From Streptomyces violaceusniger Tu 4113 (GTDB taxonomy: Bacteria > Actinomycetota > Actinomycetes > Streptomycetales > Streptomycetaceae): DNA of 64,000 nucleotides. Numbering within the stretch: the stretch's first letter is position 1; every line of letters begins with the position of its first letter. A model generated the notes under the pieces. That model made no database searches and was not told the origin of the DNA. It worked only from the letters and a program-made list of their open reading frames with translations. Of the stretch, positions 9,722 to 32,794 are shown piece after piece. Both the position numbers and the translations under genes were made by a program. The DNA lies in assembly GCF_000147815.2 (NCBI RefSeq), contig NC_015957.1:7688001-7752000 (forward strand), given 5' to 3'.

Positions 9722-9821
9722 GACCACCCGAGGGTCGGCCCTCGCCATCGCCGCGCCGGCCGCGGGGGTAGGCGGCAGCCGGCCGGGGCGGGGCCGAGTG
9801 CGGGCCCGGGGCGCCTGCGGC

Positions 9822-10161
9822 GGCGAAGTTCCCCACCCCGCCCCTTCCCGAAGCAAGGGGCTCCGCCCCTTGACCCCTCCGGGGCTCCGCCCCTTGACCC
9901 CGTAGAGCCACGCCCCGCACGCCACGTAGCCCCAGGCGAGGCCGCACCCCGCGCTCACGGTGCCGCCCGGGGCGGGGACCGAGCCCAAAAGGAGGCCGGG
10001 CCGTGCCCCCGCCGACGTCCGAGCACCCAACCGGGGTTCGGGGGACTGGGCCCAGCAGGGTCCGAGAGGCACAGCCCAGCGCGGTCCAAGCGGCGCAGCC
10101 CAGCAGGGTCCGAGGGGCGCAGTTCCTTGTTTCGGGAAGGGGCGGGGTGGGGAACTTCGCC
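9822..10161. repeat. 37-base inverted repeat pair (arms 9822-9858 and 10125-10161)
   Basis: The left arm begins GGCGAAGTTCCCCACCCC and the right arm is its reverse complement with a single difference (GAAGC versus GAAAC). The arms are 266 bases apart and face each other. A related element, starting CGGGAAGGGGCGGGG, recurs near 36025. This looks like a Streptomyces intergenic repeat family present here in both orientations. Confidence 0.85.
10051..10122. repeat. Three tandem 24-base repeats
   Basis: Units starting CCCAGCAGGGTCCGAG lie at 10051, 10075 and 10099, each 24 bases, with a few differences. They sit inside the inverted repeat pair. The length is a multiple of three, but no real gene covers them. 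Confidence 0.85.
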
Positions 10162-10230
10162 CGCCCGGTCTGCACCCGACCGAAGGCCCCCGCCGACCGG
10201 GGCGCTCCCAGAAGATCGCTCAGGCCAGGG

Positions 10231-11157
10231 TCAGTCCACCGCGATGGCGATCTTGCCCCTGGTATGGCCCTCCATGCTGAGACGCTGGGCGTCCGCCGTC
10301 TTCGGAAGGGGGAAGACCGCGGAGACCTCGACGCCGAGGGCGCCGCGCTCTGCGAGGTCGGTGAGGTCCTGAAGGTCGTCGGGGTCGGGGCGGACGAAGA
10401 CGTAGCGGCCACCGAGGCCGAGGACGGCGGGGTCGGCGATGGAGGCCAGGCGGCCGTCGGGGGCGAGGAGTTCGGCGGAGACGGTGAGCGCGTCGCCGCC
10501 GACCAGGTCGAGCACGGCGTCCACCCCGTTCGGGGCGAGGGCGCGGACCCGCTCGGCGAGGCCCTCGCCGTACGTGGTCGGCTCCGCGCCGAGCGCGCGC
10601 AGATACTCGTGGTTGCGCTCGCTCGCGGTGCCGATCACGCGGGCCCCCATGTGCCGGGCCAGCTGGACCGCCATCGAGCCGACCCCGCCCGCCGCCGCGT
10701 GGACCAGGACGGTGTCGCCCTCGCCGACCCGCAGCGCCCGCACCAGCGACTGGTAGGCCGTCAGGCCCGCCAGCGGGATGCCCGCGGCCTGCGTGAAGGA
10801 GAGGTTCCGCGGTTTGCGGGCGAGGGTGCGGATGGGCGCGGCCACGTACTCGGCGCAGGTGCCCCGGGAGAGGAAGTCCTCCCGTACGTATCCGATCACC
10901 TCGTCACCGGGCCGGAACTCCGTCACCGCGGGGCCGGGCCGCTCCACGACCCCGGAGACGTCCCAGCCGGGGATGACCGGAAAGACCGCGTCCAGGATCG
11001 GTTCGAGGTATCCGGCCTGCGCCTTCCAGTCGACGGGGTTCACGCTGGCGGCCCTGACCCTGATCAGGACGGAGTCGGGGCCGACCTTCGGCTCCGGCCG
11101 CTCCCCGTACTCCAGGATCTCGGGGCCGCCGTAGCGGCGGTAGGTGATGGCCTTCAT
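10231..11157 (-). CDS. NADP-dependent quinone-reductase-like oxidoreductase (MDR family)
   Basis: The 308-residue enzyme is a medium-chain reductase without zinc-ligand cysteines. It has the N-terminal GroES-like domain (MKAITYRRYGGPEILEYGERP, VIPGWDVSGVVE, FRPGDEVIGY). The nucleotide-binding domain includes the quinone-reductase signature AAAGGVGSMAVQLARHMGARVIGTAS. It would reduce quinones or enals with NADPH. A GAGGAGC site precedes ATG 11157. It lies downstream of the F420/NADP-type reductase on the same strand, with 187 bases of repeat-containing sequence between, so co-transcription is possible but not certain. Confidence 0.87.
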   Translation of the reverse strand: MKAITYRRYGGPEILEYGERPEPKVGPDSVLIRVRAASVNPVDWKAQAGYLEPILDAVFPVIPGWDVSGVVERPGPAVTEFRPGDEVIGYVREDFLSRGTCAEYVAAPIRTLARKPRNLSFTQAAGIPLAGLTAYQSLVRALRVGEGDTVLVHAAAGGVGSMAVQLARHMGARVIGTASERNHEYLRALGAEPTTYGEGLAERVRALAPNGVDAVLDLVGGDALTVSAELLAPDGRLASIADPAVLGLGGRYVFVRPDPDDLQDLTDLAERGALGVEVSAVFPLPKTADAQRLSMEGHTRGKIAIAVD

Positions 11158-11176
11158 GGTGGTGCTCCTCGCGGCT

Positions 11177-11252
11177 CACGCGTTCTCGTGGTTCTCACGT
11201 TCTCGTGGTTCTCGTTCTCGTGGTTCTCACGTTCTCGTGGTTCTCGCGGCTC
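11177..11252. repeat. 15-17 base tandem repeat between two reductase genes
   Basis: Four copies of CGTTCTCGTGGTTCT occur with 15-17 base spacing, followed by degenerate copies. The array begins about 20 bases upstream of the MDR reductase start, so it lies in or next to that gene's leader region. Confidence 0.85.
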
Positions 11253-11344
11253 TCGCGTTCTCCTTGCCCCGCTCCTCCCCATCGACGCTCCTGCTCCCCC
11301 ACCCTCGGCGCAAATCCGCAACCGCCCCGGCCGCCACCCCGGCG

Positions 11345-11998
11345 CTACGCCGGGCTCTGCGCCGCCAGCGGCGGCAGCGCGGCTCGTGGCTCCACCCCGC
11401 CGAACCAGAAGCCGAGCAGAAACGCGACGGTGGACTCCAGCAGGCGGGCCCGCTCCAGGCCCCCGGCGTCCAGCGGTACGCAGCCCATATCGCGGACCAG
11501 CGTGCGTACGGCCTCCAGGGCCTCCTCGTCGTCCCCGCACAGCGGAACCGCCAGCGGCCCGTCGGCGAAGACCGGCGGGGTCATCCGCCACACCGCGTCC
11601 GAGCAGTGGCAGAACGCCTTCACGACCCGCGCCCCGACGGCCCGCGCGGCGATCCGCTCGGCCATGCCCGGCCCGCCGTCGGTGGCGAGGGTGAAGCGCC
11701 CGGGGACGACCGCGTTGGTGCAGTCGATCAGCGCCCGGCCGCTCAGCGTGGCCTCGGCCGCGCCCGCCGCCTCCAGGGCCGCCTCGACGCCGTCGTACGC
11801 CACCGCCAGCAGCGTCACATCGCCGAATCCGGCGGCCTCGCGCAGACTCCCCGCCCGCGCTCCGTGGCCGATCCGGGTGGCCAGCGCCGCCGCCTTCGGC
11901 CGCGAGCGGCCGCCGATGAACAGCTCATGCCCCGCCCGCGCCCACTGGGCCCCCAGCGCGTCCGCCATCGTGCCCGTGCCCAGCACTGCGATCCGCAT
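11345..11998 (-). CDS. F420/NADP-dependent reductase-like protein (NADP-binding Rossmann)
   Basis: The 217-residue protein begins MRIAVLGTGTMADALGAQWARAGHELFIGGR, the NAD(P)-binding start of the F420-dependent NADP reductase/6-phosphogluconate dehydrogenase-like group. ALIDCTNAVV and a later VVKAFCHC block follow as in that family. Partners in this group reduce or oxidise NADP with F420 or small substrates. The ribosome site GAGGAGGAGG lies just before ATG 11998. It is divergent from the HxlR regulator at 12117, with a 28-base perfect palindrome between them, so HxlR probably controls it. Confidence 0.82.
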   Translation of the reverse strand: MRIAVLGTGTMADALGAQWARAGHELFIGGRSRPKAAALATRIGHGARAGSLREAAGFGDVTLLAVAYDGVEAALEAAGAAEATLSGRALIDCTNAVVPGRFTLATDGGPGMAERIAARAVGARVVKAFCHCSDAVWRMTPPVFADGPLAVPLCGDDEEALEAVRTLVRDMGCVPLDAGGLERARLLESTVAFLLGFWFGGVEPRAALPPLAAQSPA

Positions 11999-12116: not shown

Positions 12117-12521
12117 GTGAGTGAACCGGCGACGACATCGCGGCCCCTCGCCCCGGAGGGATTCATCGCCGACTGCCGGGCGCGGCTGGGCTTCGATCTG
12201 CTGGCCCGCACCTGGACCGCCGTCGTGATCTTCGGGCTGCGGGAGGGGCCGCGCCGCCCCGGCGAACTGCGCGAGGCGATCGGCGGCATCAGCCCGAAAG
12301 TGCTCAACGACACTCTGCGCCGCCTGGAGGACGACGGGCTGGTGGAGCGGCGCCGGTACGCGGCGGCGCCGCCCCGGGTCGAGTACGCGCTGACCCCGCT
12401 CGGGGAGACCCTGCTGGGGCCGGTCGAGGCGCTCGGTGCCTGGTCGGTGGAGTACGGGGACGCGGTGGTCGAGGCTCAGGAACGGGCCGAGGAGCGGGCC
12501 GAGCGGGGGCGGGATCGGTAG
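12117..12521 (+). CDS. HxlR-family transcriptional regulator
   Basis: The 134-residue protein is a winged helix regulator of the HxlR/MarR-like type. It has a conserved early cysteine (FIADCRARLGFDLLARTWT), the helix GPRRPGELREAIGGISPKVLNDTLRRLEDDGLVERRRY and a wing ending in YALTPLGETLL. HxlR proteins often sense electrophiles or aldehydes through the cysteine and control neighbouring oxidoreductases, which fits the divergent reductase gene here. GTG 12117 follows an AGGAGG site with 6-base spacing. The 28-base palindrome upstream is its likely operator. Confidence 0.88.
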   Translation: MSEPATTSRPLAPEGFIADCRARLGFDLLARTWTAVVIFGLREGPRRPGELREAIGGISPKVLNDTLRRLEDDGLVERRRYAAAPPRVEYALTPLGETLLGPVEALGAWSVEYGDAVVEAQERAEERAERGRDR

Positions 12522-12578: not shown

Positions 12579-12598
12579 CATACCGACTGGTCGGCATC
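12579..12598. promoter_or_regulatory. TetR-type operator CATACCGACTGGT before the kinase/acyl-CoA dehydrogenase operon
   Basis: The sequence CATACCGACTGGTCGGCATC is an imperfect palindrome (ATACCGACT against GGTCGGCAT). The core CATACCGACTGGT recurs at 18264 (minus orientation) and at 32775. It lies about 90 bases upstream of ATG 12685. The likely ligand is the TetR protein encoded at 15095, because that operon carries the same site. Confidence 0.65.
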
Positions 12599-12684
12599 AT
12601 AATGCGGAACAGTTCGCCCGCTCCCCCGACCGAGCGGCTGTGAGCAGTACCAAGAAGGACCGAGGAAACCCAGGAAGAGGTTCG

Positions 12685-13707
12685 ATGAACGCAGGCAATC
12701 CCCCAGGGCTCGACCTCGATCGGCTCCGCGCCCACCTCGACCGCGAACGCGCGGGACTGGTGCGCGGGCCGTTGAGCGCCGAGCTGATCGAAGGCGGCCG
12801 TTCGAATCTCACCTACACCGTCACCGACGGCACCTCCCGCTTTGTCGTCCGCCGGCCGCCGCTGGGCCATGTGCTCGCCACCGCCCACGACATGGCGCGG
12901 GAACACCGGGTGATCAGCGCCCTGCACCCGACGGCCGTGCCGGTGCCGGAGCCGGTGCTGCTGTGCGAGGACGAGTCGGTGGTCGGATCGCCCTTCTACG
13001 TCATGGAGTTCGTCGAGGGCACCCCGTACCGCACCGCCGAGCAACTCGCCGGCATCGGCCCGGAGCGCACCCGGGAGGTCGTCCTCTCCCTCGTCGACAC
13101 GCTCGTGGCGCTGCACTCCGTGGACCCGGCCGAGGTCGGGCTCGGCGACTTCGGGCGCCCGGAGGGGTTTCTGGAGCGGCAGCTTCGGCGCTGGGGCAAG
13201 CAACTGGCGGCCTCGCGCAACCGCGAGCTCTCCGGGATCGACGAGCTGCACACCCGGCTCGCCAAAGCGCTGCCGGCCTCCCCCGTGCCCACGGTCGTCC
13301 ACGGCGACTACCGCCTGGACAACGTCCTGGTGGACGCCGACGACCGGATCACGGCGATCCTCGACTGGGAGATGTCCACGCTCGGCGATCCGCTGACCGA
13401 CCTCGGGCTGATCGTGATGTACAGCGGTCATCCGAATCTCGCCGACTCCCCCATCTCCTCCACCCAGGGCGCCCCCGGCCACCCCGCCACGGACGAGCTG
13501 ATCCAGCGCTATGCCGAGGGTTCCGGGCGTGATGTGAGCGGCGTGTCCTGGTACACCGCCTTCGCCTACTTCAAGCTCGCGGTGATCCTCGAGGGCATCC
13601 ACTACCGCTACACCCTCGGCCAGACCGTCGGCGCGGGCTTCGACCGCATCGGCGACATCGTCCCCGCCTTCATCGACCACGGTCTCACCACCCTCGAGGA
13701 GAGCTGA
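12685..13707 (+). CDS. Aminoglycoside-phosphotransferase-fold kinase (ACAD10/11 or LvaA-type)
   Basis: The 340-residue protein is an APH-fold phosphotransferase: LIEGGRSNLTYTV nucleotide loop, FVVRRPP lysine-equivalent strand, the catalytic loop VVHGDYRLDNVLV and the metal-binding AILDWEMSTLGDPLTDLG. This subgroup is the one that neighbours acyl-CoA dehydrogenases. In vertebrate ACAD10/11 the two domains are fused and phosphorylate and dehydrate 4-hydroxyacyl-CoA; in Pseudomonas LvaA does the same for levulinate. Here an acyl-CoA dehydrogenase gene starts 7 bases after the stop, so the two probably act together. ATG 12685 follows AGGAAGAGG. An antibiotic-resistance role is unlikely in this context. 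Confidence 0.85.
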   Translation: MNAGNPPGLDLDRLRAHLDRERAGLVRGPLSAELIEGGRSNLTYTVTDGTSRFVVRRPPLGHVLATAHDMAREHRVISALHPTAVPVPEPVLLCEDESVVGSPFYVMEFVEGTPYRTAEQLAGIGPERTREVVLSLVDTLVALHSVDPAEVGLGDFGRPEGFLERQLRRWGKQLAASRNRELSGIDELHTRLAKALPASPVPTVVHGDYRLDNVLVDADDRITAILDWEMSTLGDPLTDLGLIVMYSGHPNLADSPISSTQGAPGHPATDELIQRYAEGSGRDVSGVSWYTAFAYFKLAVILEGIHYRYTLGQTVGAGFDRIGDIVPAFIDHGLTTLEES

Positions 13708-13714
13708 TCCCGTC

Positions 13715-14929
13715 ATGGACTTCGCATTCGACGCCCGGACCGAAGAACTGCGCGCCAAGCTGCTCGCCTTCATGGACGAGCATGTCCGTCCGGCGGAGGC
13801 GGTCGCGGAGGAGCAGCGCGCGGCCCTGGACTCCCCGTGGCTGACCCCGGCGGTCGTCGGGGAGCTCAAGGCCGAGGCCCGCCGGCAGGGGCTGTGGAAC
13901 CTCTTCCTGCCCGACGAGGAGTACGGCGCGGGGCTGACCAATCTGCAGTACGCCCCGCTCGCGGAGATCACCGGCCACAGCCCCCAGCTTGCCCCCACGG
14001 CCCTGAACTGCGCCGCCCCCGACACCGGCAACATGGAGGTGCTCGCCCAGTTCGGCGACGAGCGGCAGCGCAAGCAGTGGCTGGAGCCGCTGCTCGCGGG
14101 GGAGATCCGGTCGGCCTTCGCGATGACCGAGCCGGAGGTCGCCTCGTCCGACGCGACCAATATCGAGACCCGGATCGAGCGCGACGGCGACGACTACGTC
14201 ATCACCGGGCGCAAGTGGTACATCTCCGGGGCGATGAACCCCGACTGCAAGATCTTCATCGTGATGGGCAAGACCGACCCGGAGGGCGCCGATGTGCGCC
14301 GTCAGCAGTCGATGGTGCTGGTGCCGCGCGACACCCCGGGCGTCGAGGTGCGGCGGGCGATGCGGGTGTACGGCTACGAGGACCACTACCACGGTGGCCA
14401 CGCCGAGGTGGTCTTCGACCGGGCGCGGGTGCCGGTGAGCAACCTCATCGGCGAGGAGGGCGGCGGTTTCGCCATCGCCCAGGCCCGTCTCGGCCCCGGC
14501 CGGATCCACCACTGCATGCGGCTGATCGGCATGGCCGAGCGCGGTATCGAGCTGATGTGCCGGCGGGCGGTGGACCGTACGGCCTTCGGCAAGGCGCTCG
14601 CCCAGCAGGGCCAGGTCCATGAGTGGATCGCGGACGCGCGGGTGGCGGTCGAGCAGCTTCGGCTGCTGGTGCTGAAGACGGCCTGGCTGATGGACACGGT
14701 GGGCAACCGCGAGGCGCATACCGAGATCCAGGCCATCAAGATCGCGACCCCCCGTACGGTGGTTCAGATTTTGGACCGGGCGGTGCAGTTGCATGGCGCG
14801 GGCGGGGTGAGCCAGGACTTCCCGCTGGCCGAGCTGTGGGCGGCAGCCCGCACGCTGCAGTTGGCTGACGGGCCGGACGAGGTGCATCAGCGGTCGCTGG
14901 CGCGGCGTGAGTTGAAGCGGTACGTGTAG
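13715..14929 (+). CDS. Acyl-CoA dehydrogenase
   Basis: The 404-residue flavoprotein is a full-length acyl-CoA dehydrogenase. It has the N-terminal helical domain, the AFAMTEPEVASSDATNIETRI substrate/FAD block, KWYISGAMNPDCKIFIVMGKT, the GRIHHCMRLIGMAERGIELMCRRAVDRTAFG C-terminal domain and the QLHGAGGVSQDFPLAELWAAARTLQLADGPDEVH end. It follows the APH-type kinase with only 7 bases between, after GAGGAG within the kinase's last codons. This close pairing mirrors the fused ACAD10/11 and the lva pathway, where the dehydrogenase-like partner completes dephosphorylation of 4-phosphoacyl-CoA to the enoyl-CoA. Plain beta-oxidation is the alternative. Confidence 0.9.
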   Translation: MDFAFDARTEELRAKLLAFMDEHVRPAEAVAEEQRAALDSPWLTPAVVGELKAEARRQGLWNLFLPDEEYGAGLTNLQYAPLAEITGHSPQLAPTALNCAAPDTGNMEVLAQFGDERQRKQWLEPLLAGEIRSAFAMTEPEVASSDATNIETRIERDGDDYVITGRKWYISGAMNPDCKIFIVMGKTDPEGADVRRQQSMVLVPRDTPGVEVRRAMRVYGYEDHYHGGHAEVVFDRARVPVSNLIGEEGGGFAIAQARLGPGRIHHCMRLIGMAERGIELMCRRAVDRTAFGKALAQQGQVHEWIADARVAVEQLRLLVLKTAWLMDTVGNREAHTEIQAIKIATPRTVVQILDRAVQLHGAGGVSQDFPLAELWAAARTLQLADGPDEVHQRSLARRELKRYV

Positions 14930-14945
14930 CTGAAGCGGTGCGGGT

Positions 14946-14981
14946 GGGGCGCGGGCGGGGTTTGGTCCCCACCCGCGCCCC
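14946..14981. terminator. Strong hairpin after the acyl-CoA dehydrogenase gene
   Basis: A 15-base stem (GGGGCGCGGGCGGGG against CCCCACCCGCGCCCC, one mismatch) closes a six-base loop. It lies 17 bases after the stop codon and faces the convergent TetR gene, so it can act for both. Smaller hairpins follow at 14993-15009 and around 15058-15072. Confidence 0.7.
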
Positions 14982-15094
14982 TTCCCGTGCCGCATCCGAT
15001 ATGCGGCTCCGCCGCGTGGGAGGGCTCCGCCCCCGGGCCCCCGGTCCTCAAGCTCCCCCAGCTACCGCTGGGAGGTGCCCCCTGGACGGGCTGG

Positions 15095-15688
15095 TTATGG
15101 CCGCAGCGCGCGCAGCAGCAGGTCGGCCAGGTGGTCGGCGACCTCCTGGGGGCCCAGCGGGCCGCCGGGCCGGTACCAGGTGCCCAGGTGGTGGACGGAG
15201 CCGAAGTGGTAGTCCACCACCAGATCGGCCGGGGTCCGGGAGCTGAAGACCCCGGTCCGCTGCCCCTCCTCGATCAGCGCGCGGAACCGCTCGTGGTAGC
15301 GGCGCCGCTCGGCGCGCACCTGCTTGTGCTTCTCCGGGCTGAGTTGGTGCATCGACCGGAAGAAGATCGTGGCGTCGTCGAGGTTCTCGATGGTGGTCAC
15401 CACGACATCGGCCGCCGCGTCCCGCAGCCGCCGCTCCACCGGTGCGTCGGCGTCCGCGAAGGCGTCCAGGCGCTCCTGCTGGAGCCGGAGCACCCGGCCG
15501 TAGATCTCATGGAGCAGATCGTCCTTGGAGCCGAAGTAGTGGTAGAGCGCACCCTTGGTGACGCCCGCCGCCTCGACGATCTCCTGTACGGACGTCCGGT
15601 CGTATCCGCGCTCCGCGAACAGGCGGGTGGCAGCCGCCAGCAGCCGCTGTGGCACCGGCTGTCCGTCACCGTCCGTCGTTTTGGCCAT
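15095..15688 (-). CDS. TetR-family regulator of the acyl catabolism locus
   Basis: The protein of about 197 residues has a classical TetR helix-turn-helix (RLLAAATRLFAERGYDRTSVQEIVEAAGVTKGALYHYFGSKDDLLHEIY) and a ligand domain with the FFRSMHQLSPEKH segment. It is the last gene of an SDR, acyl-CoA ligase, TetR operon. That operon has a CATACCGACTGGT operator, and the same core precedes the APH/acyl-CoA dehydrogenase operon and a molybdopterin oxidoreductase. I infer that this protein represses all three and is released by an acyl-CoA. ATG 15688 is preferred to 15697. Confidence 0.88.
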   Translation of the reverse strand: MAKTTDGDGQPVPQRLLAAATRLFAERGYDRTSVQEIVEAAGVTKGALYHYFGSKDDLLHEIYGRVLRLQQERLDAFADADAPVERRLRDAAADVVVTTIENLDDATIFFRSMHQLSPEKHKQVRAERRRYHERFRALIEEGQRTGVFSSRTPADLVVDYHFGSVHHLGTWYRPGGPLGPQEVADHLADLLLRALRP

Positions 15689-15718
15689 GGTCGCCACCCG
15701 TTCTCTTCCTCTTCTCTT

Positions 15719-17362
15719 TCATCCTCGCAGTTCCCGCCGGAGGATCTTGCCACTGGTCGTCTTGGGCAACTCGGGCAGGATCTCCACCTCGCGCGGGTAC
15801 TTGTACGCGGCGAGGCGCTCCGCACAGTACGCGGACAGCTCGTCCGGTGTGGCCTCGGCCTCCGGTCGGAGGCTCACATACGCCTTGACCGTCTCGCCGC
15901 GGTACGCGTCGGGTTTGCCGACGACGGCCGCCTCCCGCACGGCGGGGTGAGTGTAGAGCACGTCCTCGACCTCGCGCGGCCACACCTTGAACCCCGAGGC
16001 GTTGATCATGTCCTTCTTGCGGTCGACCACGTACAGCCAGCCGCCCTCGTCCATGAAGCCGATGTCGCCGGTGCGCAGTTCCCCGTCCGGGAGGGTGGTC
16101 GCGGTGGCCTCCGGGCGCCGCCAGTAGCCGGGCACCACCATCGGGCCGCGGACGACGATCTCGCCCTGCTCGCCGAACGGCACGTCCTGCCCGGCCTCGT
16201 CCACGATGCGTACGACCGTGTCGGCGCCGGGGACGCCGACGGCGAGGGTGCCGGAGACCGGGTCGATGGGGGCGCGGACGCCGGGTGGGACGCTGGCGCA
16301 GGGCGCGGTGCACTCGGTGAGCCCGTAGCCGTTGTGCAGATACGGGCCGAGGGCCGATTGGAACCGCTCGACCAGCGCGGGCGGCAGCGGGGCGCCGCCG
16401 GAGGAGATGATCCGGAAGGACGAGAAGTGGTCGCGGCCGGCCTGGGGGTGGGCCATCAGCGCCATGAAGGCGGTGGAGGGGCCCACGGTGTAGGCGGGGC
16501 GGTGCTCGGCGAAGGCGTCGAGGACGACGCCGGTCTCGAAGCGGTAGGCCAGGGCCAGGGTGCCCGCTCCGGACACGCACGCGCAGAGCTGGCAGACCAT
16601 GCCGGTGATGTGGAACAGCGGGGCCAGCGCGAAGAGCGTCGAGCCTTCGGGCAGCTCGTGGAGGAGGTGCTGCCGGTCGGCGTTGTAGGAGATGTTGCCG
16701 TGGGTGTTGGTGGCCCCCTTGGGGGTGCCGCTGGTCCCGGAGGTGTAGCTGATCAGCGCGATGTCCTCGGCGCGCGGTGCGGGGACGGACGGCGGGCGGG
16801 CTCCGGCGCGGGCGGCCGTAAGGAGGTCCTCGGTGTCCTCGGGGACCGGGAGGGGCTCCTCGCGCAGCACCCGCGCGTCGTCGCGGGTCTGGAGCTCACG
16901 GGCGTCGGCGGTGAACGCGATGCGCACCGGGGACGCGGCGGCCGTCTCGCGTACGTAGTCCTCCCAGGCGTGGCGGGAGCAGACCAGGGCGCTCACCTCG
17001 GCGTCGCCGAGGATGTGCGCGAGCTCGGCGCCCTTGTACATGGGGTTGACCGGGACGACCGTACCGCCCGCCTTCCACGCCGCCAGCAGCGCGATCACGA
17101 AGTGCGGGGTGTTCTGGAGCATGATCGCCATCCGGTCGCCGGGCCCGAAGCCACGTTCGGCGAGATGGCCGGCTATGCCGTCGGAGAGCTCGTCGACCTC
17201 CCGGTAGGTCAGCCGTCCGTCGAAGTAGGCGAGCGCCGGATGGCCGGGGGCGGTGCGCACGGCGTCCCGGAACGCGTGCAGCGGACTGGGCCGCGGGGTG
17301 ATCGTCCGGCGCTGTGCCTCGGTGAGCTGGGCGAGCCATGGCTGGTCCTGGTACGTGGTCAT
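15719..17362 (-). CDS. AMP-dependent acyl-CoA synthetase
   Basis: The 547-residue enzyme has all ANL-family motifs: the AMP-binding P-loop SYTSGTSGTPKGATNTH, the adenine motif NGYGLTECTAP, the ELRTGDIGF hinge-region aspartate and the catalytic lysine block PKTTSGKILRREL. It would activate a carboxylic acid to its CoA ester in the cytoplasm. Flanking SDR, TetR, acyl-CoA dehydrogenase and kinase genes place it at the entry of an acid degradation pathway, equivalent to LvaE if the pathway is levulinate-like. It lies 69 bases after the SDR gene and 30 bases before TetR on the same strand. Confidence 0.92.
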   Translation of the reverse strand: MTTYQDQPWLAQLTEAQRRTITPRPSPLHAFRDAVRTAPGHPALAYFDGRLTYREVDELSDGIAGHLAERGFGPGDRMAIMLQNTPHFVIALLAAWKAGGTVVPVNPMYKGAELAHILGDAEVSALVCSRHAWEDYVRETAAASPVRIAFTADARELQTRDDARVLREEPLPVPEDTEDLLTAARAGARPPSVPAPRAEDIALISYTSGTSGTPKGATNTHGNISYNADRQHLLHELPEGSTLFALAPLFHITGMVCQLCACVSGAGTLALAYRFETGVVLDAFAEHRPAYTVGPSTAFMALMAHPQAGRDHFSSFRIISSGGAPLPPALVERFQSALGPYLHNGYGLTECTAPCASVPPGVRAPIDPVSGTLAVGVPGADTVVRIVDEAGQDVPFGEQGEIVVRGPMVVPGYWRRPEATATTLPDGELRTGDIGFMDEGGWLYVVDRKKDMINASGFKVWPREVEDVLYTHPAVREAAVVGKPDAYRGETVKAYVSLRPEAEATPDELSAYCAERLAAYKYPREVEILPELPKTTSGKILRRELRG

Positions 17363-17431
17363 GGGTGCGGCCCTGTCTGGACGGGGGTGAGGGTGGTGGT
17401 GCGGAGAGTACGGGAGCGGCGACCCGCGGGG

Positions 17432-18214
17432 TCAGCCCGAGGTCCCGGATGCCGCCTCGAGATCCTCGAGCTTGCGCTGCAGCTTGTTGATGCCGCCCAG
17501 CCAGCGGTCGGTGTCGCCGGCGCGGGCCGCGTAGTGGCGGGCCACCTCGGGGTGCGGAAGGATCAGGAAGCGCTCCTCCTCGATGCCCGCGAGGACGGCG
17601 TCGGCGACCTGCTCGGGCTCGATCGCGGTGGGCGCCAGCACCAGGTCCCCGGCGGCCCCGGTGGCGGTCAGCATGTCGGTGCGCACCCCCTGCGGGCAGA
17701 CGGCGTGGACGCCGATGCCGCGGTGGCGGTAGGTGCCCGAGAGCCATTCGGCGAAGGCGAGCGCGGCGTGCTTGGAGACGGCGTACGGCGCCGAGCCGAT
17801 CATGGTGAGTATCCCGGCGGCGGAGACGGTGGCGACGAAGCGGCCGCTGCCGCGCTCCAGCCACTCGGGCAGCAGCTCCCGGGCGGCCCGCACATGGGCC
17901 ATCACATTGACGTCCCAGGACTGCTGCCACAGCTCCTCGTCGGCCTCGGGGCCGCCGTCGTGGCCGACGCCCGCGTTGGCGCAGAAGATGTCGATGGTGC
18001 CGCCGAGCGCTTCACGGGCCGCGGGCACGATGCCGGAGGCGTCGCCGGGCACTGCGGTCGCGCCGATCTCCTCGGCGACGGCGGCGGCCTTGGCGGCGTC
18101 GAGGTCGTTGACCACGACCCGGGCGCCCTCGGCGGCGAAGCGCCGGGCGAGGGCGGCGCCGATGCCACCTCCCGCCCCGGTGACCACAACACGCGCCCCA
18201 CGCACGGTACCCAC
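17432..18214 (-). CDS. Short-chain dehydrogenase/reductase
   Basis: The 260-residue SDR shows the NAD(P) motif TGAGGGIG, the CANAGVGH strand (NAG motif) and the catalytic YAVSK, with a C-terminal extension that includes a predicted helix (INKLQRKLEDLEAAS). It is the first gene of the operon with the acyl-CoA ligase and TetR. In a levulinate-type route it would reduce the 4-oxoacyl-CoA to 4-hydroxyacyl-CoA; a 3-hydroxyacyl-CoA dehydrogenase role is the alternative. GTG 18214 follows GAGGAG with about 9-base spacing. The shared operator lies 50 bases upstream. Confidence 0.88.
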   Translation of the reverse strand: MGTVRGARVVVTGAGGGIGAALARRFAAEGARVVVNDLDAAKAAAVAEEIGATAVPGDASGIVPAAREALGGTIDIFCANAGVGHDGGPEADEELWQQSWDVNVMAHVRAARELLPEWLERGSGRFVATVSAAGILTMIGSAPYAVSKHAALAFAEWLSGTYRHRGIGVHAVCPQGVRTDMLTATGAAGDLVLAPTAIEPEQVADAVLAGIEEERFLILPHPEVARHYAARAGDTDRWLGGINKLQRKLEDLEAASGTSG

Positions 18215-18263
18215 GATTCGCAGCTCCTCGGATCGACTCGGATCGGCTCCTGCCCGCAGCGCA

Positions 18264-18283
18264 GACTAACCAGTCGGTATGTA
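18264..18283 (-). promoter_or_regulatory. TetR-type operator upstream of the SDR/acyl-CoA ligase/TetR operon
   Basis: On the minus strand the site reads CATACCGACTGGTTAGTC, sharing the 13-base core CATACCGACTGGT with sites at 12579 and 32775. It is 50 bases upstream of the SDR start, suitable for repression. Confidence 0.65.
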
Positions 18284-18327: not shown

Positions 18328-19368
18328 TTACCGGCCGGGGCGCTTCCTGCGCATCACCCCGCGCCAGCGGGCGTTCTCCCCGGCGAGCGCGTCCCACAGC
18401 ACATTGAGCGGATGGCCGGCGTCCTGCGCTGCGCGCTCCCCGGCCCGTACGAACACTCCGATCAGCACTTCCAGCTCCGGTCCCGCACCGTCGGTCAGCT
18501 CCAGGGTGCGCAGCCCGGCACCGGCGCGGATCCGTCCGCCGGCCACCGCGTCGCCGATGCCCTCGGTGACGAGCACACAGCCGCGCAGCACCCCCGAGGA
18601 GAGCAGCTCCAGCCCGTACTGCACGGTGTCGATCTCGGCCGCGATATGCAGCTCCTGGCGGTAGCGGGCGCCGAACCAGCCACGCAGAAAGCCGGGTATG
18701 AGCCCGTCGGCCGAGACGGCGAGCGGCAGCCGGGGCAGCTCGCTCACCGGGACCGAGGGCCCGGGCAGCTCCTCGGCGTCGAGGTTGGTGACCAGGGACA
18801 GCCCGCTGCGCCGCCACTCCATCACCTCGAAGCCGTCGAGCCGGCTGTCGTGGCCCGCCGTGGTGAGGACGCTGCCGCATACCAGGTCGAGTTGTTTGGC
18901 CTCGAGCCGCTCCAGCAGATCCCGGGTGCGCACATGCTCGACCTTGAGCTCGACACCCCGCCGGTCGAATTCCCCGGTGACCAACTCCACGGCATTCAGC
19001 AGAAAGCCGAGGGTGTAACGGGTGGAGCCGACACAGAGCCGGCTGCCGAGTCGGCGGCGGCTGTCGTGCAGCCCCTCCAGCCACTCCTCCAGGGTGCCGC
19101 GTGCGAGTCCGGCGAGGGACTCCCCGGTGGCGGTGAAGAGCACATTCTGACTGCGTCCCCGTTTGACCACCAGCGGCTCTCCGCACAGGGCGCCGAAGTT
19201 CCGGTTCAGGGTGTCCAGTTGTTTCTGCACACTGGACTGCTCCCGCCCCAGCAGCCGGGCGGCGCCCAGTGCGGTGCCCGCCTCATGGACCGCGAGCAAC
19301 GTTCTGAGCTGGTCCATCGTGGTGTCCAGCAGCGCCGTCGGGTACTGCCATCGATCCTTTAAGGGCAT
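18328..19368 (-). CDS. LysR-type transcriptional regulator with a TTA codon at position 3
   Basis: The 346-residue protein has a LysR-like winged helix near its N-terminus (MDQLRTLLAVHEAGTALGAARLLGREQSSVQKQLDTLNRNFG), then a periplasmic-binding-type effector domain (LGSRLCVGSTRYTLGFLLNAV, LDLVCGSVLTT). It is longer than the usual 300 residues. ATG 19368 follows GGAAGG. Its third codon is TTA (19360-19362), the codon read by the bldA tRNA, so expression is probably tied to development. It has no close divergent partner of obvious function; the alpha/beta hydrolase at 19669 is divergent and is the natural target. Confidence 0.82.
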   Translation of the reverse strand: MPLKDRWQYPTALLDTTMDQLRTLLAVHEAGTALGAARLLGREQSSVQKQLDTLNRNFGALCGEPLVVKRGRSQNVLFTATGESLAGLARGTLEEWLEGLHDSRRRLGSRLCVGSTRYTLGFLLNAVELVTGEFDRRGVELKVEHVRTRDLLERLEAKQLDLVCGSVLTTAGHDSRLDGFEVMEWRRSGLSLVTNLDAEELPGPSVPVSELPRLPLAVSADGLIPGFLRGWFGARYRQELHIAAEIDTVQYGLELLSSGVLRGCVLVTEGIGDAVAGGRIRAGAGLRTLELTDGAGPELEVLIGVFVRAGERAAQDAGHPLNVLWDALAGENARWRGVMRRKRPGR

Positions 19369-19668
19369 TCCGGCCTTCCGCTCGAAGAGTATTCGGCACC
19401 CCAATGACGTTTCCGTTCGCAGCATAGTGCAGCGCCTTCCGGGTGAACTGATCCCGAGAACAGCGGGGATATTCTTCCGATGGATATTCGGGAATTCCCT
19501 ATCTCCGGATGGCCGCGGAGTCCGGCATTCCAGGTTCCGGTCGCGTCATTGCGGGTAAGTCGAACGGCTGGCCGATTGTCCGACGGCAACCGTATGCGTG
19601 TCGTATGGTCAGCGGACGGGGCAGTTGGGACGATGCACGCACATCGGGCCATCCAAGGGGGAGCAGCG

Positions 19669-24943: not shown

Positions 24944-24967
24944 TGAGTGGTTGCCCGGGAGGCACGC

Positions 24968-25429
24968 ATGGCAGAGCCCAGGATCTTCACCTCGCCCGAT
25001 GACCTGCGATCCGCGGTCGGCGAGGAACTCGGCCCCAGTGACTGGCTGGAGATCGACCAGAAGCGCATCGATCTGTTCGCCGACGCGACCGGCGACCACC
25101 AGTGGATCCATGTGGACCCGGAGAAGGCCGCCGCCGGTCCGTTCGGCACCACGATCGCGCACGGCTATCTGACGCTGTCCCTGCTGCCGTCGTTCACCCC
25201 GCAGCTCCTGCGGGTCGAGGGCGTGCGGATGGGCATCAACTACGGCGTGAACAAGGTCCGTTTCCCCTCCCCCGTCCCGGTCGGCTCCCGGCTGCGCGCC
25301 ACCGGCCGGATCGTGGAGGTGACCGAGGTCAAGGACGGGCTGCAGATGACGCTCGCGGTCACCCTCGAGCGGGAGGGCGGGACCAAGCCGGCGTGCGTGG
25401 CGGAGTGCGTCGTCCGCTACTACGCCTGA
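24968..25429 (+). CDS. MaoC-family enoyl-CoA hydratase-like protein
   Basis: The 153-residue hot-dog-fold protein contains the R-hydratase motif IDLFADATGDHQWIHVDPEKAAAGPFGTTIAHGYLTLSLLP with the catalytic aspartate and histidine. MaoC proteins hydrate enoyl-CoA or act as acyl dehydratases in fatty acid or polyketide metabolism. The start ATG 24968 has a strong GGGAGG site 6 bases upstream; the in-frame GTG at 24947 is less likely. A TetR operator-like site lies just upstream. It is convergent with the TetR gene at 25474 with a 44-base gap. Confidence 0.9.
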   Translation: MAEPRIFTSPDDLRSAVGEELGPSDWLEIDQKRIDLFADATGDHQWIHVDPEKAAAGPFGTTIAHGYLTLSLLPSFTPQLLRVEGVRMGINYGVNKVRFPSPVPVGSRLRATGRIVEVTEVKDGLQMTLAVTLEREGGTKPACVAECVVRYYA

Positions 25430-25473: not shown

Positions 25474-26127
25474 TCACGACCGCCGGTCCTGACCGCCGTC
25501 GGCCCCCACCATGCGCAGCACCAGACCCGCGTAGAGGTCGCCGACCTCGTCGGGGGTGCTGCGCCCGCGGGCGTTGAACCAGCGGGCGACGTCGATGCAC
25601 AGGGACAGCACCGCGACCGTGGCGCCGCGGACGTCCGGGACGTCGAAGGCACCCGCCTTCACCCCGTCCTCGATGATCGAACGCACCGCCCCGTCCGTGG
25701 CCTTGCGGACGGCGATGACCTCGGCGTGGTGCTCCTCGGCCAGCGCGCCGAGCTCGTACTGCACCACCCGCGCGGTCATATGGTGCTCGGCGTGCCAGCG
25801 GACGAAGGCGCGGACCGCGCGGGCCAGCCGCTCGGCGGGCGTGCCCGCGCTGTCCCGCGCCCGCTCCACAATCTCCAGTGCCCGCTCATGGCCGACCTTG
25901 CTGATCTGGTAGAGCAGCTCTTCCTTGGTCTTGTAGTGGATGTAGAGGGCGGCCGGGCTCATTCCGGCGCGGCTCGCGATGTCCCGGGTGGTGGTGGCGT
26001 GGTAGCCGCGCTCCGCGAAGGCGTGCACGGCGGCGCTCACCAGCCGCCGGGCGGCGTCGGGGGTGATGTCGCCCCAGGGCTCGATCTCGCCCCCGCTGTT
26101 CTTCGGCTCCGCGTCCATGGCGGACAC
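25474..26127 (-). CDS. TetR-family regulator paired with MaoC
   Basis: The 217-residue protein has an N-terminal helix-turn-helix (RRLVSAAVHAFAERGYHATTTRDIASRAGMSPAALYIHYKTKEELLYQI) and a ligand-binding domain that includes VRWHAEHHMTARVVQYEL. The start may be GTG 26127 or ATG 26118. It converges with the MaoC gene, and matching TGAGCA...GCTTAG operators precede both genes. It therefore probably represses itself and the hydratase, with an acyl-CoA as inducer, as for other fatty-acid TetR regulators. Confidence 0.87.
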   Translation of the reverse strand: MSAMDAEPKNSGGEIEPWGDITPDAARRLVSAAVHAFAERGYHATTTRDIASRAGMSPAALYIHYKTKEELLYQISKVGHERALEIVERARDSAGTPAERLARAVRAFVRWHAEHHMTARVVQYELGALAEEHHAEVIAVRKATDGAVRSIIEDGVKAGAFDVPDVRGATVAVLSLCIDVARWFNARGRSTPDEVGDLYAGLVLRMVGADGGQDRRS

Positions 26128-28924: not shown

Positions 28925-30370
28925 TCAGATGATGCCGAAGAGAACACCGGCGGCGAGCACCACCAGGGAGGTGAGCACCGCCCATTTCACGGTGAACCGG
29001 GTATGGTCGCCGAATTCGACCTTGGCCATGCCGACGAGCACGTAGACCGCGGGGACCAGCGGGCTCGACATGTGCAGGGCCTGTCCGACGAGCGAGGCGC
29101 GGGCTATCTCCAGCGTGGAGACCCCGTGCGCGGCCCCGGCCTCGGCGAGGATCGGCACGATGCCGAAGTAGAAGCCGTCGTTGGACATGAAGTAGGTGAG
29201 CGGGATGGACAGCACACCGGTGACGATGCCCATCTGCGGGCCCATGCCCTCGGGGACTCCGTCGACCAGCCAGCGGGCCATGTGCTCGACCATGCCGGTG
29301 CCGGTGAGGACGCCGGTGAAGACGGCCGCGGCGAAGACCATTCCGGAGACGTTGACGACGTTCTCGGCGTGTGCCGCGACCCGGGCCTTCTGGTCGTTCA
29401 TCTGCGGGAAGTTGACGGTGAGCGCGACGGCCGCGGCGAGCAGGAAGAGGACCGGGATCGGCATGGTCTCCGTCACCATCAGGGCGAGCAGCGCGATGGT
29501 GAGGGCCGCGTTGAACCAGTAGAGCTTGGGGCGCAGGGTGGCGCGGTTCGGGTCGAGGCCCTTGAACTCGTCGTCGTCCGCGTCGGAGGCGTCCGAGGTG
29601 CCGGAGCCGTTCGGGGACTGGGCCTGCGCGTCGGTGCCGGAGCCCGCGCCGCCGCCGGTCGGCGCGGCCTTGCCGCCCTTGGCCCCCTTGCCGCCGGAGC
29701 CCGCGCCGACCAGCACCTGCTCGGGGTCGCCCGCGGTGACCTCGTCCAGCGTCAGCACGCCGAGGCGCTTGCGCTCCCGCAGACCGAGGCCGTAGGAGAG
29801 GGCGATCACGAAGAGCAGACCGGCCGCGAGGGCCGGGATCATCGGCACGAAGATGTCGCTGGCGTCGACCTTGAGCGCGGCGGCGGCGCGGGCGGTGGGG
29901 CCGCCCCAGGGCAGCGTGTTCATCACGCCGTTGGCCATGGCCGCGACACCGGTCATCACCACCACGCTCATCTTCAGCCGCCGGTAGAGCGGCACCATCG
30001 CCGACACGGTGATCATGAAGGTGGTGGAGCCGTCGCCGTCGAGCGAGACGATCGCCGCGAGGATCGCGGTGCCGACCACCACCCGCATCGGGTCCGCCTT
30101 GCAGAACCGCAGGATCATCCGGACGATCGGGTCGAAGAGGCCGACGTCGATCATCACCCCGAAGTAGATGATGGCGAACATCAGCATGGCGGCCGTGGGT
30201 GCCAGCTCGCCGACGCCCTTGAGGACGTAGTCCCCGAGGTGGGCCCCCTTCCCGACAAGCACACAGAACAGCGCGGGGATGAGCACCAGGGCGCCCATCG
30301 GGGACATCTTCTTCATCATGATCAGGACAAGGAATGTCGCGATCATGACGAAGCCGAGGATGGTCAGCAT
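28925..30370 (-). CDS. CitMHS-family metal-citrate transporter
   Basis: The 481-residue membrane protein has the CitMHS pattern: an N-terminal span pair, IYFGVMIDVGLFDPIVRMILRFCKADPMRVVVGTAIL, the conserved DGDGSTTFMI, NTLPWGGPTARAA, and a second half with YFMSNDGFYFGIVPIL and SPLVPAVYVLVG. A cytoplasmic loop near residues 225-270 carries a low-complexity Gly/Ser insert. Members import divalent-metal citrate with protons (CitM and the Streptomyces Ca/Fe citrate carrier). GAGG precedes ATG 30370. The MFS gene follows 3 bases after the stop. Metal specificity cannot be told from sequence. Confidence 0.9.
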   Translation of the reverse strand: MLTILGFVMIATFLVLIMMKKMSPMGALVLIPALFCVLVGKGAHLGDYVLKGVGELAPTAAMLMFAIIYFGVMIDVGLFDPIVRMILRFCKADPMRVVVGTAILAAIVSLDGDGSTTFMITVSAMVPLYRRLKMSVVVMTGVAAMANGVMNTLPWGGPTARAAAALKVDASDIFVPMIPALAAGLLFVIALSYGLGLRERKRLGVLTLDEVTAGDPEQVLVGAGSGGKGAKGGKAAPTGGGAGSGTDAQAQSPNGSGTSDASDADDDEFKGLDPNRATLRPKLYWFNAALTIALLALMVTETMPIPVLFLLAAAVALTVNFPQMNDQKARVAAHAENVVNVSGMVFAAAVFTGVLTGTGMVEHMARWLVDGVPEGMGPQMGIVTGVLSIPLTYFMSNDGFYFGIVPILAEAGAAHGVSTLEIARASLVGQALHMSSPLVPAVYVLVGMAKVEFGDHTRFTVKWAVLTSLVVLAAGVLFGII

Positions 30371-32774: not shown

Positions 32775-32794
32775 CCATACCGACTGGTAGGCAT
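32775..32794 (-). promoter_or_regulatory. TetR-type operator before the molybdopterin oxidoreductase
   Basis: CATACCGACTGGTAGGCATG shares the 13-base core of the sites at 12579 and 18264. It lies between the TetR gene at 32873 and the oxidoreductase start at 32721, both on the minus strand. Confidence 0.65.

Follow-up and report, generated by a model that had tools for sequence, protein, structure and literature searches.

The window analysed here is a 64,000-nt stretch of Streptomyces violaceusniger Tu 4113 (NC_015957.1; genome of 11,138,313 bases), and it carries a putative TetR-controlled catabolic regulon built around two convergent operons. Genes were called from open reading frames (ORFs) and domain scans, with seven proteins scanned around the core. 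On the forward strand a kinase of the APH fold is followed, after a gap of 7 bases, by an acyl-CoA dehydrogenase (ACAD); the two are separate, unfused genes. An SDR (SDR1), an AMP-forming acyl-CoA ligase and a TetR regulator form the operon on the reverse strand. Coordinates and domain scans agree with an earlier note on this DNA, which had described both operons and had proposed that they are an actinobacterial version of the Pseudomonas levulinate (lva) pathway.

We compared the kinase and the ACAD with proteins of solved structure. The kinase matched PDB entry 9o56 with 251 bits, 3dxp with 189 and the ACAD11 kinase with 179, while antibiotic kinases reached at most 29 bits; in the compared blocks 106 of 296 positions are identical to ACAD11. 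The best solved relative of the ACAD is ACAD11 itself (455 bits, 218 of 395 aligned positions identical), and apart from the ACAD11 entries and 4hr3 no further ACAD in PDB scores above 146 bits. For mouse ACAD11, the kinase residues described are R86, beside the canonical alpha-C Glu, R176, a CoA contact, D220 and N225; those of the ACAD part are R626, the HCMR motif (H634-R637) and the catalytic D753 (PMC12440821). R165, D208 and N213 of the window kinase correspond to R176, D220 and N225 and are invariant in 114 of 114 kinases. In the ACAD, R258, H266-C267-M268-R269 and D385 correspond to R626, HCMR and D753 and are invariant in 92 of 92 copies. Both sets consist of the copies that passed chosen score limits in 119 loci. 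A kinase lacking the residues shared by LvaA and ACAD11, which the earlier note had named as a sign against its proposal, was not encountered among the 114, and the type was not refuted. Score and mapped diagnostic residues thus support the assignment of both enzymes to the ACAD10/11-LvaA/LvaC type. Enzymes of this type phosphorylate 4-hydroxyacyl-CoA and then eliminate the phosphate in an FAD-dependent reaction that yields 2-enoyl-CoA (PMC12440821; PMC11342911).

By their Pfam labels and their generic annotation in public records, these genes could also be read as a phosphotransferase of the antibiotic type next to an ordinary beta-oxidation ACAD, under an operator of general fatty-acid control; operator-like sites do occur elsewhere in some Streptomyces genomes. 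However, the antibiotic-kinase models score far below cut-off, the ACAD carries HCMR and its catalytic position holds an Asp, and the exact operator core is limited to three promoters in this genome. We regard this explanation as highly improbable. A second kinase-ACAD pair is present in the genome (L295, G000:C3:3494000-3513000, 9777-11998), 53% and 36% identical; judged by eye, HCMR is present in this ACAD too and the catalytic residue is again an Asp. Another pair lies between IS3 transposase genes on a linear plasmid of Streptomyces cathayae (L337), with F420-related genes further on.

The 13-mer CATACCGACTGGT occurs exactly at 12579 (+), 18269 (-) and 32776 (+), with no further exact copy in the genome; its reversed control has one genome copy against three for the true pattern. 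The sites have the form of an 18-bp near-palindrome. When up to three mismatches were allowed, 15 sites were found in the window against a chance mean of 11.7, which is no excess, and for this reason only exact or near-exact sites were counted. The operator core that had been noticed at the two operons accounts for two of the three exact copies. Both of these sites were found again in every one of 20 other Streptomyces loci. These loci, each about 20 kb around the kinase, were picked by hand from 284 kinase-bearing genomes, mainly for contiguity, and include the closest. Their kinase-side site is of the ATACCGACYRGTCGG type and their SDR-side site of the TTAGTCT type; TetR identity across them is 84-98%, and the ligase was not found beside TetR in two of the 20 (L050, L051). 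The third exact copy precedes a gene for a molybdopterin oxidoreductase (MOP), to which the earlier note had made no reference.

Table 1. Genes and candidate operators in the window
Feature	Position	Strand	Remarks
Operator A (ATACCGACTGGTCGGCAT)	12580-12597	+	87 bp before kinase start
Operator B (ATACCGACTGGTTAGTCT on - strand)	18263-18280	-	48 bp before SDR start
Operator C (ATACCGACTGGTAGGCAT)	32777-32794	+	55 bp before MOP start, on the strand opposite MOP
Predicted 4-hydroxyacyl-CoA kinase, APH fold, ACAD10/11-LvaA type	12685-13707	+	R72-E73, R165, D208, N213
ACAD11/LvaC-type ACAD, predicted to eliminate phosphate from 4-phosphoacyl-CoA	13715-14929	+	R258, H266-C267-M268-R269, D385
TetR regulator (TetR_C_24), last gene of the SDR operon	15095-15697	-	Domain scan
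AMP-forming acyl-CoA ligase (AMP-binding), predicted activation step	15719-17362	-	Domain scan
SDR (SDR1), predicted 4-oxo/4-hydroxyacyl-CoA oxidoreductase	17432-18214	-	Domain scan, relatives
MOP, 742 aa	30496-32721	-	Asp135 at Mo-ligand position
HxlR	12117-12521	+	ORF/domain scan
LysR	18328-19425	-	ORF/domain scan
MaoC-like hydratase, tentative member	24947-25429	+	Homologue in kinase operons of other actinobacteria, 58-67% identity
Second TetR, tentative	25474-26127	-	Homologue adjoins SDR2 or thiolase genes elsewhere, 56% identity
CitMHS-type citrate symporter	28925-30370	-	Downstream of MOP

We also searched 121 Streptomyces genomes with the pattern ATACCGACYRGTHRG, which gave 344 matches against 21 for its reversed control (sums by hand). 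Of the 111 genomes whose kinase match was strong (E below 1e-130), 109 contain at least two pattern matches, against two of the ten others. This hand tally counts matches whether or not each lies at the cluster, and its Fisher p of 2e-9 is nominal because the genomes are related.

The presence of the sites follows that of the TetR. In 99 scored loci (the 80 named loci described below and 19 from another set of 20), mostly from other genera and some of them picked through TetR, a strong site (at least 16/18) was found in 31 of 38 loci with TetR (at least 120 bits) and in 11 of 61 loci without it (p 4e-10, nominal). A site of at least 15/18 lies within about 450 bp upstream of TetR in 24 of the 38. 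Sites of at least 16/18 numbered 71 in 1,834,626 bp, compared with one in 172,000 bp of control loci. Each target promoter carries a shared, conserved operator that tracks the TetR, which is the pattern of a regulon under one TetR, and we infer that this TetR binds the sites. It is probably autoregulated, since it is the last gene of the SDR operon.

Several other candidates were examined as regulon members. HxlR and LysR were rejected, each lying near the core in four of the 20 Streptomyces relatives. An operon labelled MDR-ACD2-ACD3 was considered as a fourth target and kept as tentative: its site in this genome (GTACCGACTGGTTAGTAT, 15 of 16 scored positions) begins 71 bp upstream (L297 3529-6936), and a score of 13 is attained in only three of 30 Streptomyces loci, counting that of this genome. 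The operon is kept in Streptomyces with CAAGCGACCGCTTAGTAT upstream in 26 of 30 loci, and CAAGCGACCGCTTAGTAT looks like the operator of another regulator. Five other weak sites in this genome were set aside; they lie in or beside seemingly unrelated genes, one of them in a polyketide synthase-like frame with a repeated site.

Extra single sites were seen in other Streptomyces genomes, some recurring beside similar genes and others chance-like, and they were not used as evidence. Operator-like sites stand before a luciferase-like oxidoreductase that adjoins an FbiC-like gene (L098 by eye from its translation; L063, L075, L086 and L089 by similarity), between alkenal-reductase-like and symporter-like genes, recalling enal detoxification (L058, L070, L074, L096; by eye), and before an alpha-hydroxy-acid-oxidase-like gene (L088, L092, L095; by eye).

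The MOP belongs to the formate dehydrogenase/thiosulfate reductase superfamily, but none of the models shown comes near its cut-off with this protein. Its Asp135 aligns with a Cys or Sec of solved relatives, the residue that serves as Mo ligand; Asp was found at this position in 32 of 32 MOP copies scored, two of them from Deinococcus. In the 30 best-matching MOP loci a site begins 59-117 bp upstream of the gene in every case, with 13-16 of 16 positions and at least 14 in 29 of the 30, while no control stretch from these loci exceeds 12. MOP lies 17 kb from the kinase here and about 23-38 kb from it in nine other genomes compared. We examined two of 17 plasmid records that carry MOP. On the Deinococcus sp. 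QL22 plasmid a MOP (46.5% identical) follows the kinase cluster in the same direction, after the order SDR-MaoC-Appr-1-p-thioesterase-ACAD-SDR-kinase-histidine phosphatase, with a convergent ligase; in D. actinosclerus MOP is about 12 kb from the kinase cluster on the other strand.

These observations bear on whether MOP has any part in this metabolism or its site is incidental. A match to MOP is present in 85 of the 121 Streptomyces genomes, MOP is in the flanks of none of the 80 named kinase loci described below, adjacency was seen in one of the two plasmid records, and the site consensus had been loosened at one position after the first scan. Against an incidental site, it is kept in place in 30 of 30 loci, including a Streptomyces genome (G088) where about 284 kb separate MOP and kinase, and MOP follows the kinase cluster in QL22. 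We consider an incidental site quite unlikely, and the MOP promoter appears to be a third conserved target of the regulon; the metabolic part of MOP would be a redox step within it.

In order to describe operon partners in relatives, we took named loci from actinobacteria, namely the best 80 among 577 listed relatives, with the kinase of locus L194 as query. A run was defined as genes on the same strand with gaps below 250 bp, and partners were counted above chosen score limits. L194 itself has the order thiolase-SDR2-SDR1-kinase-ACAD-ligase, with TetR and an operator at its head. Partners in the 80 loci were ACAD (60), SDR2 (46), SDR1 (37), HAD (24), SDR3 (22), TetR (22), MaoC (19) and thiolase (7). 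The runs included HAD-kinase-ACAD (11), SDR2-SDR1-kinase-ACAD (10), SDR3-MaoC-kinase-ACAD (4) and longer ones; the kinase stood alone in 11 loci and with ACAD only in four. In 60 control loci the counts of ACAD, SDR1, SDR2, SDR3, MaoC, HAD, thiolase, TetR and ligase were all 0, and those of kinase and MOP were 2 and 6 because such loci are among the controls; ACD2 and ACD3 cannot be judged there since 30 controls were chosen for ACD2. On a Tsukamurella plasmid the genes thiolase-SDR-SDR-quinone-oxidoreductase-HAD-FabG-MaoC-kinase-ACAD-ACAD-ACAD-phosphotriesterase-ligase run in one direction; it is to the second SDR of this run that the SDR of the window is most similar (55%).

The operons of relatives would supply steps missing here, namely a thiolase, further SDRs and a MaoC hydratase. 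A MaoC homologue is also found at the edge of three of the 20 Streptomyces loci; no operator was found at the MaoC-like gene of the window. Phosphotriesterase homologues occur in two of 101 further loci, once directly after ACAD, and none was found in the window. Phosphotriesterase-like proteins include lactonases, and such a gene would fit the opening of a lactone. The proposal of an actinobacterial lva-like pathway is upheld in part. The kinase and ACAD are of the expected type by score and mapped residues, and the same conserved operator system covers the SDR and the ligase. Membership of the SDR gains from the many other actinobacteria in which it shares an operon with kinase and ACAD, while the link of the ligase is weak outside Streptomyces. 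The gene set as first described was incomplete, since it lacked MOP as a third target as well as the thiolase, MaoC hydratase and additional SDRs that accompany the cluster in relatives.

The HAD gene lies within the run in 24 of the 80 named loci, directly before the kinase in 19 and as HAD-kinase-ACAD in 18. Its best NCBIfam match, from one protein scanned, is TIGR02247 with 93 bits, below the curated 125. In 25 of 25 copies (the 24 and that of Tsukamurella) the motif reads D-Y/W-G-G, that is, D-x-G instead of DxD. The HAD domain of ACAD10 is reported to retain a single Asp of DxD, to be almost inactive as a phosphatase and to hold the kinase back (PMC11342911), and is described as having no homology to any lva protein (PMC12440821). 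The bacterial gene order is the mammalian ACAD10 domain order, and the bacterial HAD may be equivalent to the ACAD10 HAD domain. No HAD was found in the window genome at E 1e-10, an empty result which by itself shows nothing. A histidine-phosphatase gene stands directly after the kinase on Azospirillum and Deinococcus plasmids (L332, L338, L339), possibly in place of LvaB or HAD. As a tentative extension, in which we place somewhat less than even confidence, HAD-kinase-ACAD would be an unfused counterpart of ACAD10 with a pseudo-phosphatase restraining the kinase, and the Streptomyces/Deinococcus route would include MOP acting on a 4-oxygenated or unsaturated intermediate.

We believe it likely that the locus encodes a TetR-controlled pathway in which a 4-hydroxyacyl-CoA is phosphorylated and the phosphate is eliminated to give a 2-enoyl-CoA. 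The TetR-repressed regulon would feed 4-oxo or 4-hydroxy carboxylic acids, or opened gamma-lactones, into beta-oxidation. In this scheme the ligase would form the CoA thioester and the SDR would interconvert 4-oxo- and 4-hydroxyacyl-CoA; an Asp that follows the second strand points to NAD(H) as its cofactor. The kinase would phosphorylate the 4-hydroxyl, and the ACAD would expel the phosphate by means of FAD and Asp385 as the catalytic residue, R258 and HCMR lying close to the phosphate. A hydratase, a 3-hydroxyacyl-CoA dehydrogenase and a thiolase would complete the route and are presumably encoded elsewhere in this organism. TetR would bind ATACCGACYRGTCGGYAT-like sites at the kinase-ACAD, SDR-ligase-TetR and MOP promoters and would probably be released by a CoA ester of the pathway.

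The substrate could be narrower than this. In a strict levulinate pathway, levulinate (4-oxopentanoate) would be the natural substrate and the SDR a functional LvaD. Taken as a set, the four enzymes (ligase, SDR, kinase, ACAD) correspond to the reactions listed for lva (PMC6692424), and the SDR shares operons with kinase and ACAD in relatives. However, the kinase is near-universal in Streptomyces (284 of 295 genomes at E<=1e-40, five of these weak), which suggests a commoner substrate. Pairs of ACADs in 19-20 of the 80 related loci, and the phosphotriesterase-type gene in Tsukamurella and in one Nocardioides locus, suggest longer acids or lactones, and the top family models of the ligase are long-chain, all those shown being below cut-off. 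Levulinate is a possible natural substrate that is not singled out by these data, and we consider the strict form unlikely. A published report of levulinate in an actinobacterium concerns its detection among the products of an Amycolatopsis.

The direction of the SDR step can also be read differently. SDRs of the cluster might convert S-4-hydroxyacyl-CoA, through oxidation to the 4-oxo compound and renewed reduction, into the R form for an R-preferring kinase, and both enantiomers would then be degraded. Two different SDRs precede the kinase in many relatives (the ten SDR2-SDR-kinase-ACAD runs and longer ones), and the ACAD10 kinase prefers the R form (PMC11342911). The window cluster has only one SDR, however, and the second SDR of relatives could be a 3-hydroxyacyl-CoA dehydrogenase. 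We judge such stereochemical repair to be rather unlikely.

Several observations count against the TetR-controlled phosphorylation-elimination pathway that we favour. The published R86 falls by number on a Phe in the PDB chain; an adjacent Arg-Glu pair (R72-E73 in the window) is present in 114 of 114 kinases. In the flanks of the 80 named loci ACAD, SDR1 and TetR reach only the counts given above, MOP is absent, and the ligase was found in only three (two query types). SDR2, common elsewhere, has no close copy in the window cluster, the best in the genome being 54% identical. MOP is missing in 36 of the 121 Streptomyces genomes, and MDR-ACD2-ACD3 has a good site here, yet few relatives have one. 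Seven of the 38 TetR loci have no strong site. TetR was found in 26 of 148 genomes of the class (E<=1e-30) and the kinase in 82 (E<=1e-60), with E limits that differ; TetR being much rarer, many kinase clusters are therefore under other control.

We know of no 4-hydroxy-acid pathway with a molybdopterin-enzyme step, and none was found described among the open-licence papers listed, nor was an actinobacterial version or this regulon. Closer bacterial kinases had already been remarked on (PMC11342911), and homologues of lvaABCD are reported from Alpha-, Beta- and Gammaproteobacteria (PMC6692424 citing Rand 2017). For mammalian genes, 4-hydroxy-acid breakdown by the 4-phosphoacyl-CoA route was assigned in two papers, of 2024 and 2025 (PMC11342911, PMC12440821). 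The chemistry is thus known, while the regulon, the MOP link and the HAD gene look new. With the gene set in nearly all Streptomyces searched and a defined operator, substrate, inducer and control would become testable in a tractable laboratory bacterium. With HAD as a gene of its own, the function of the ACAD10 HAD domain could be tested on proteins that are not fused, and MOP as a target hints at a redox step that has not been described. A metabolic function could emerge for many genes now annotated as phosphotransferase or aminoglycoside phosphotransferase.

The regulatory scheme resembles that of the actinobacterial KstR and KstR2 regulons, in which a TetR regulator controls several lipid-catabolic operons through one palindrome; the palindrome and the targets differ from those found here, and the window TetR scores 27 bits with the KstR model against a cut-off of 280 bits. 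Mammalian ACAD10 and ACAD11 have the same type of kinase and ACAD with the mapped catalytic and phosphate-side residues, and the two reactions are predicted to be alike (PMC12440821, PMC11342911). Here, in contrast, kinase and ACAD are separate and are linked to a TetR-type regulator, a ligase, an SDR and a Mo-enzyme. The likeness to ACAD10 was drawn from its published description; the Streptomyces cluster has no HAD, while the HAD of relatives is without one Asp of DxD, as is the ACAD10 HAD (PMC11342911).

In Pseudomonas putida, lvaABCDE likewise unites a ligase, an SDR, an APH kinase and an ACAD in one co-regulated set (PMC6692424, PMC12440821). The likeness to LvaA and LvaC was reached through ACAD11 and published residues rather than by direct sequence comparison. 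The window differs in its extra MOP, its two convergent operons and the TetR at the SDR operon instead of an LvaR-type (sigma-54) regulator, a comparison confined to the locus. No LvaB-like gene was recognised beside the kinase and ACAD, where the search for one was made, and no LvaF or LvaG transport protein was seen among the seven proteins scanned around the core, a scan not dedicated to them. The lva cluster of P. citronellolis LA18 shares kinase, ACAD and SDR, and the description available to us reports no lvaB there (PMC6692424). Clusters of Azospirillum and Deinococcus share the same three genes and have the histidine-phosphatase gene by their kinase, which the window has not. Given a regulator of a different type and the lack of a recognisable LvaB-like gene beside the kinase, we do not file the locus as an lva operon; as judged from sequence, its enzymes are best filed under the ACAD10/11-LvaA/LvaC type, and the locus appears to be a variant of these systems.

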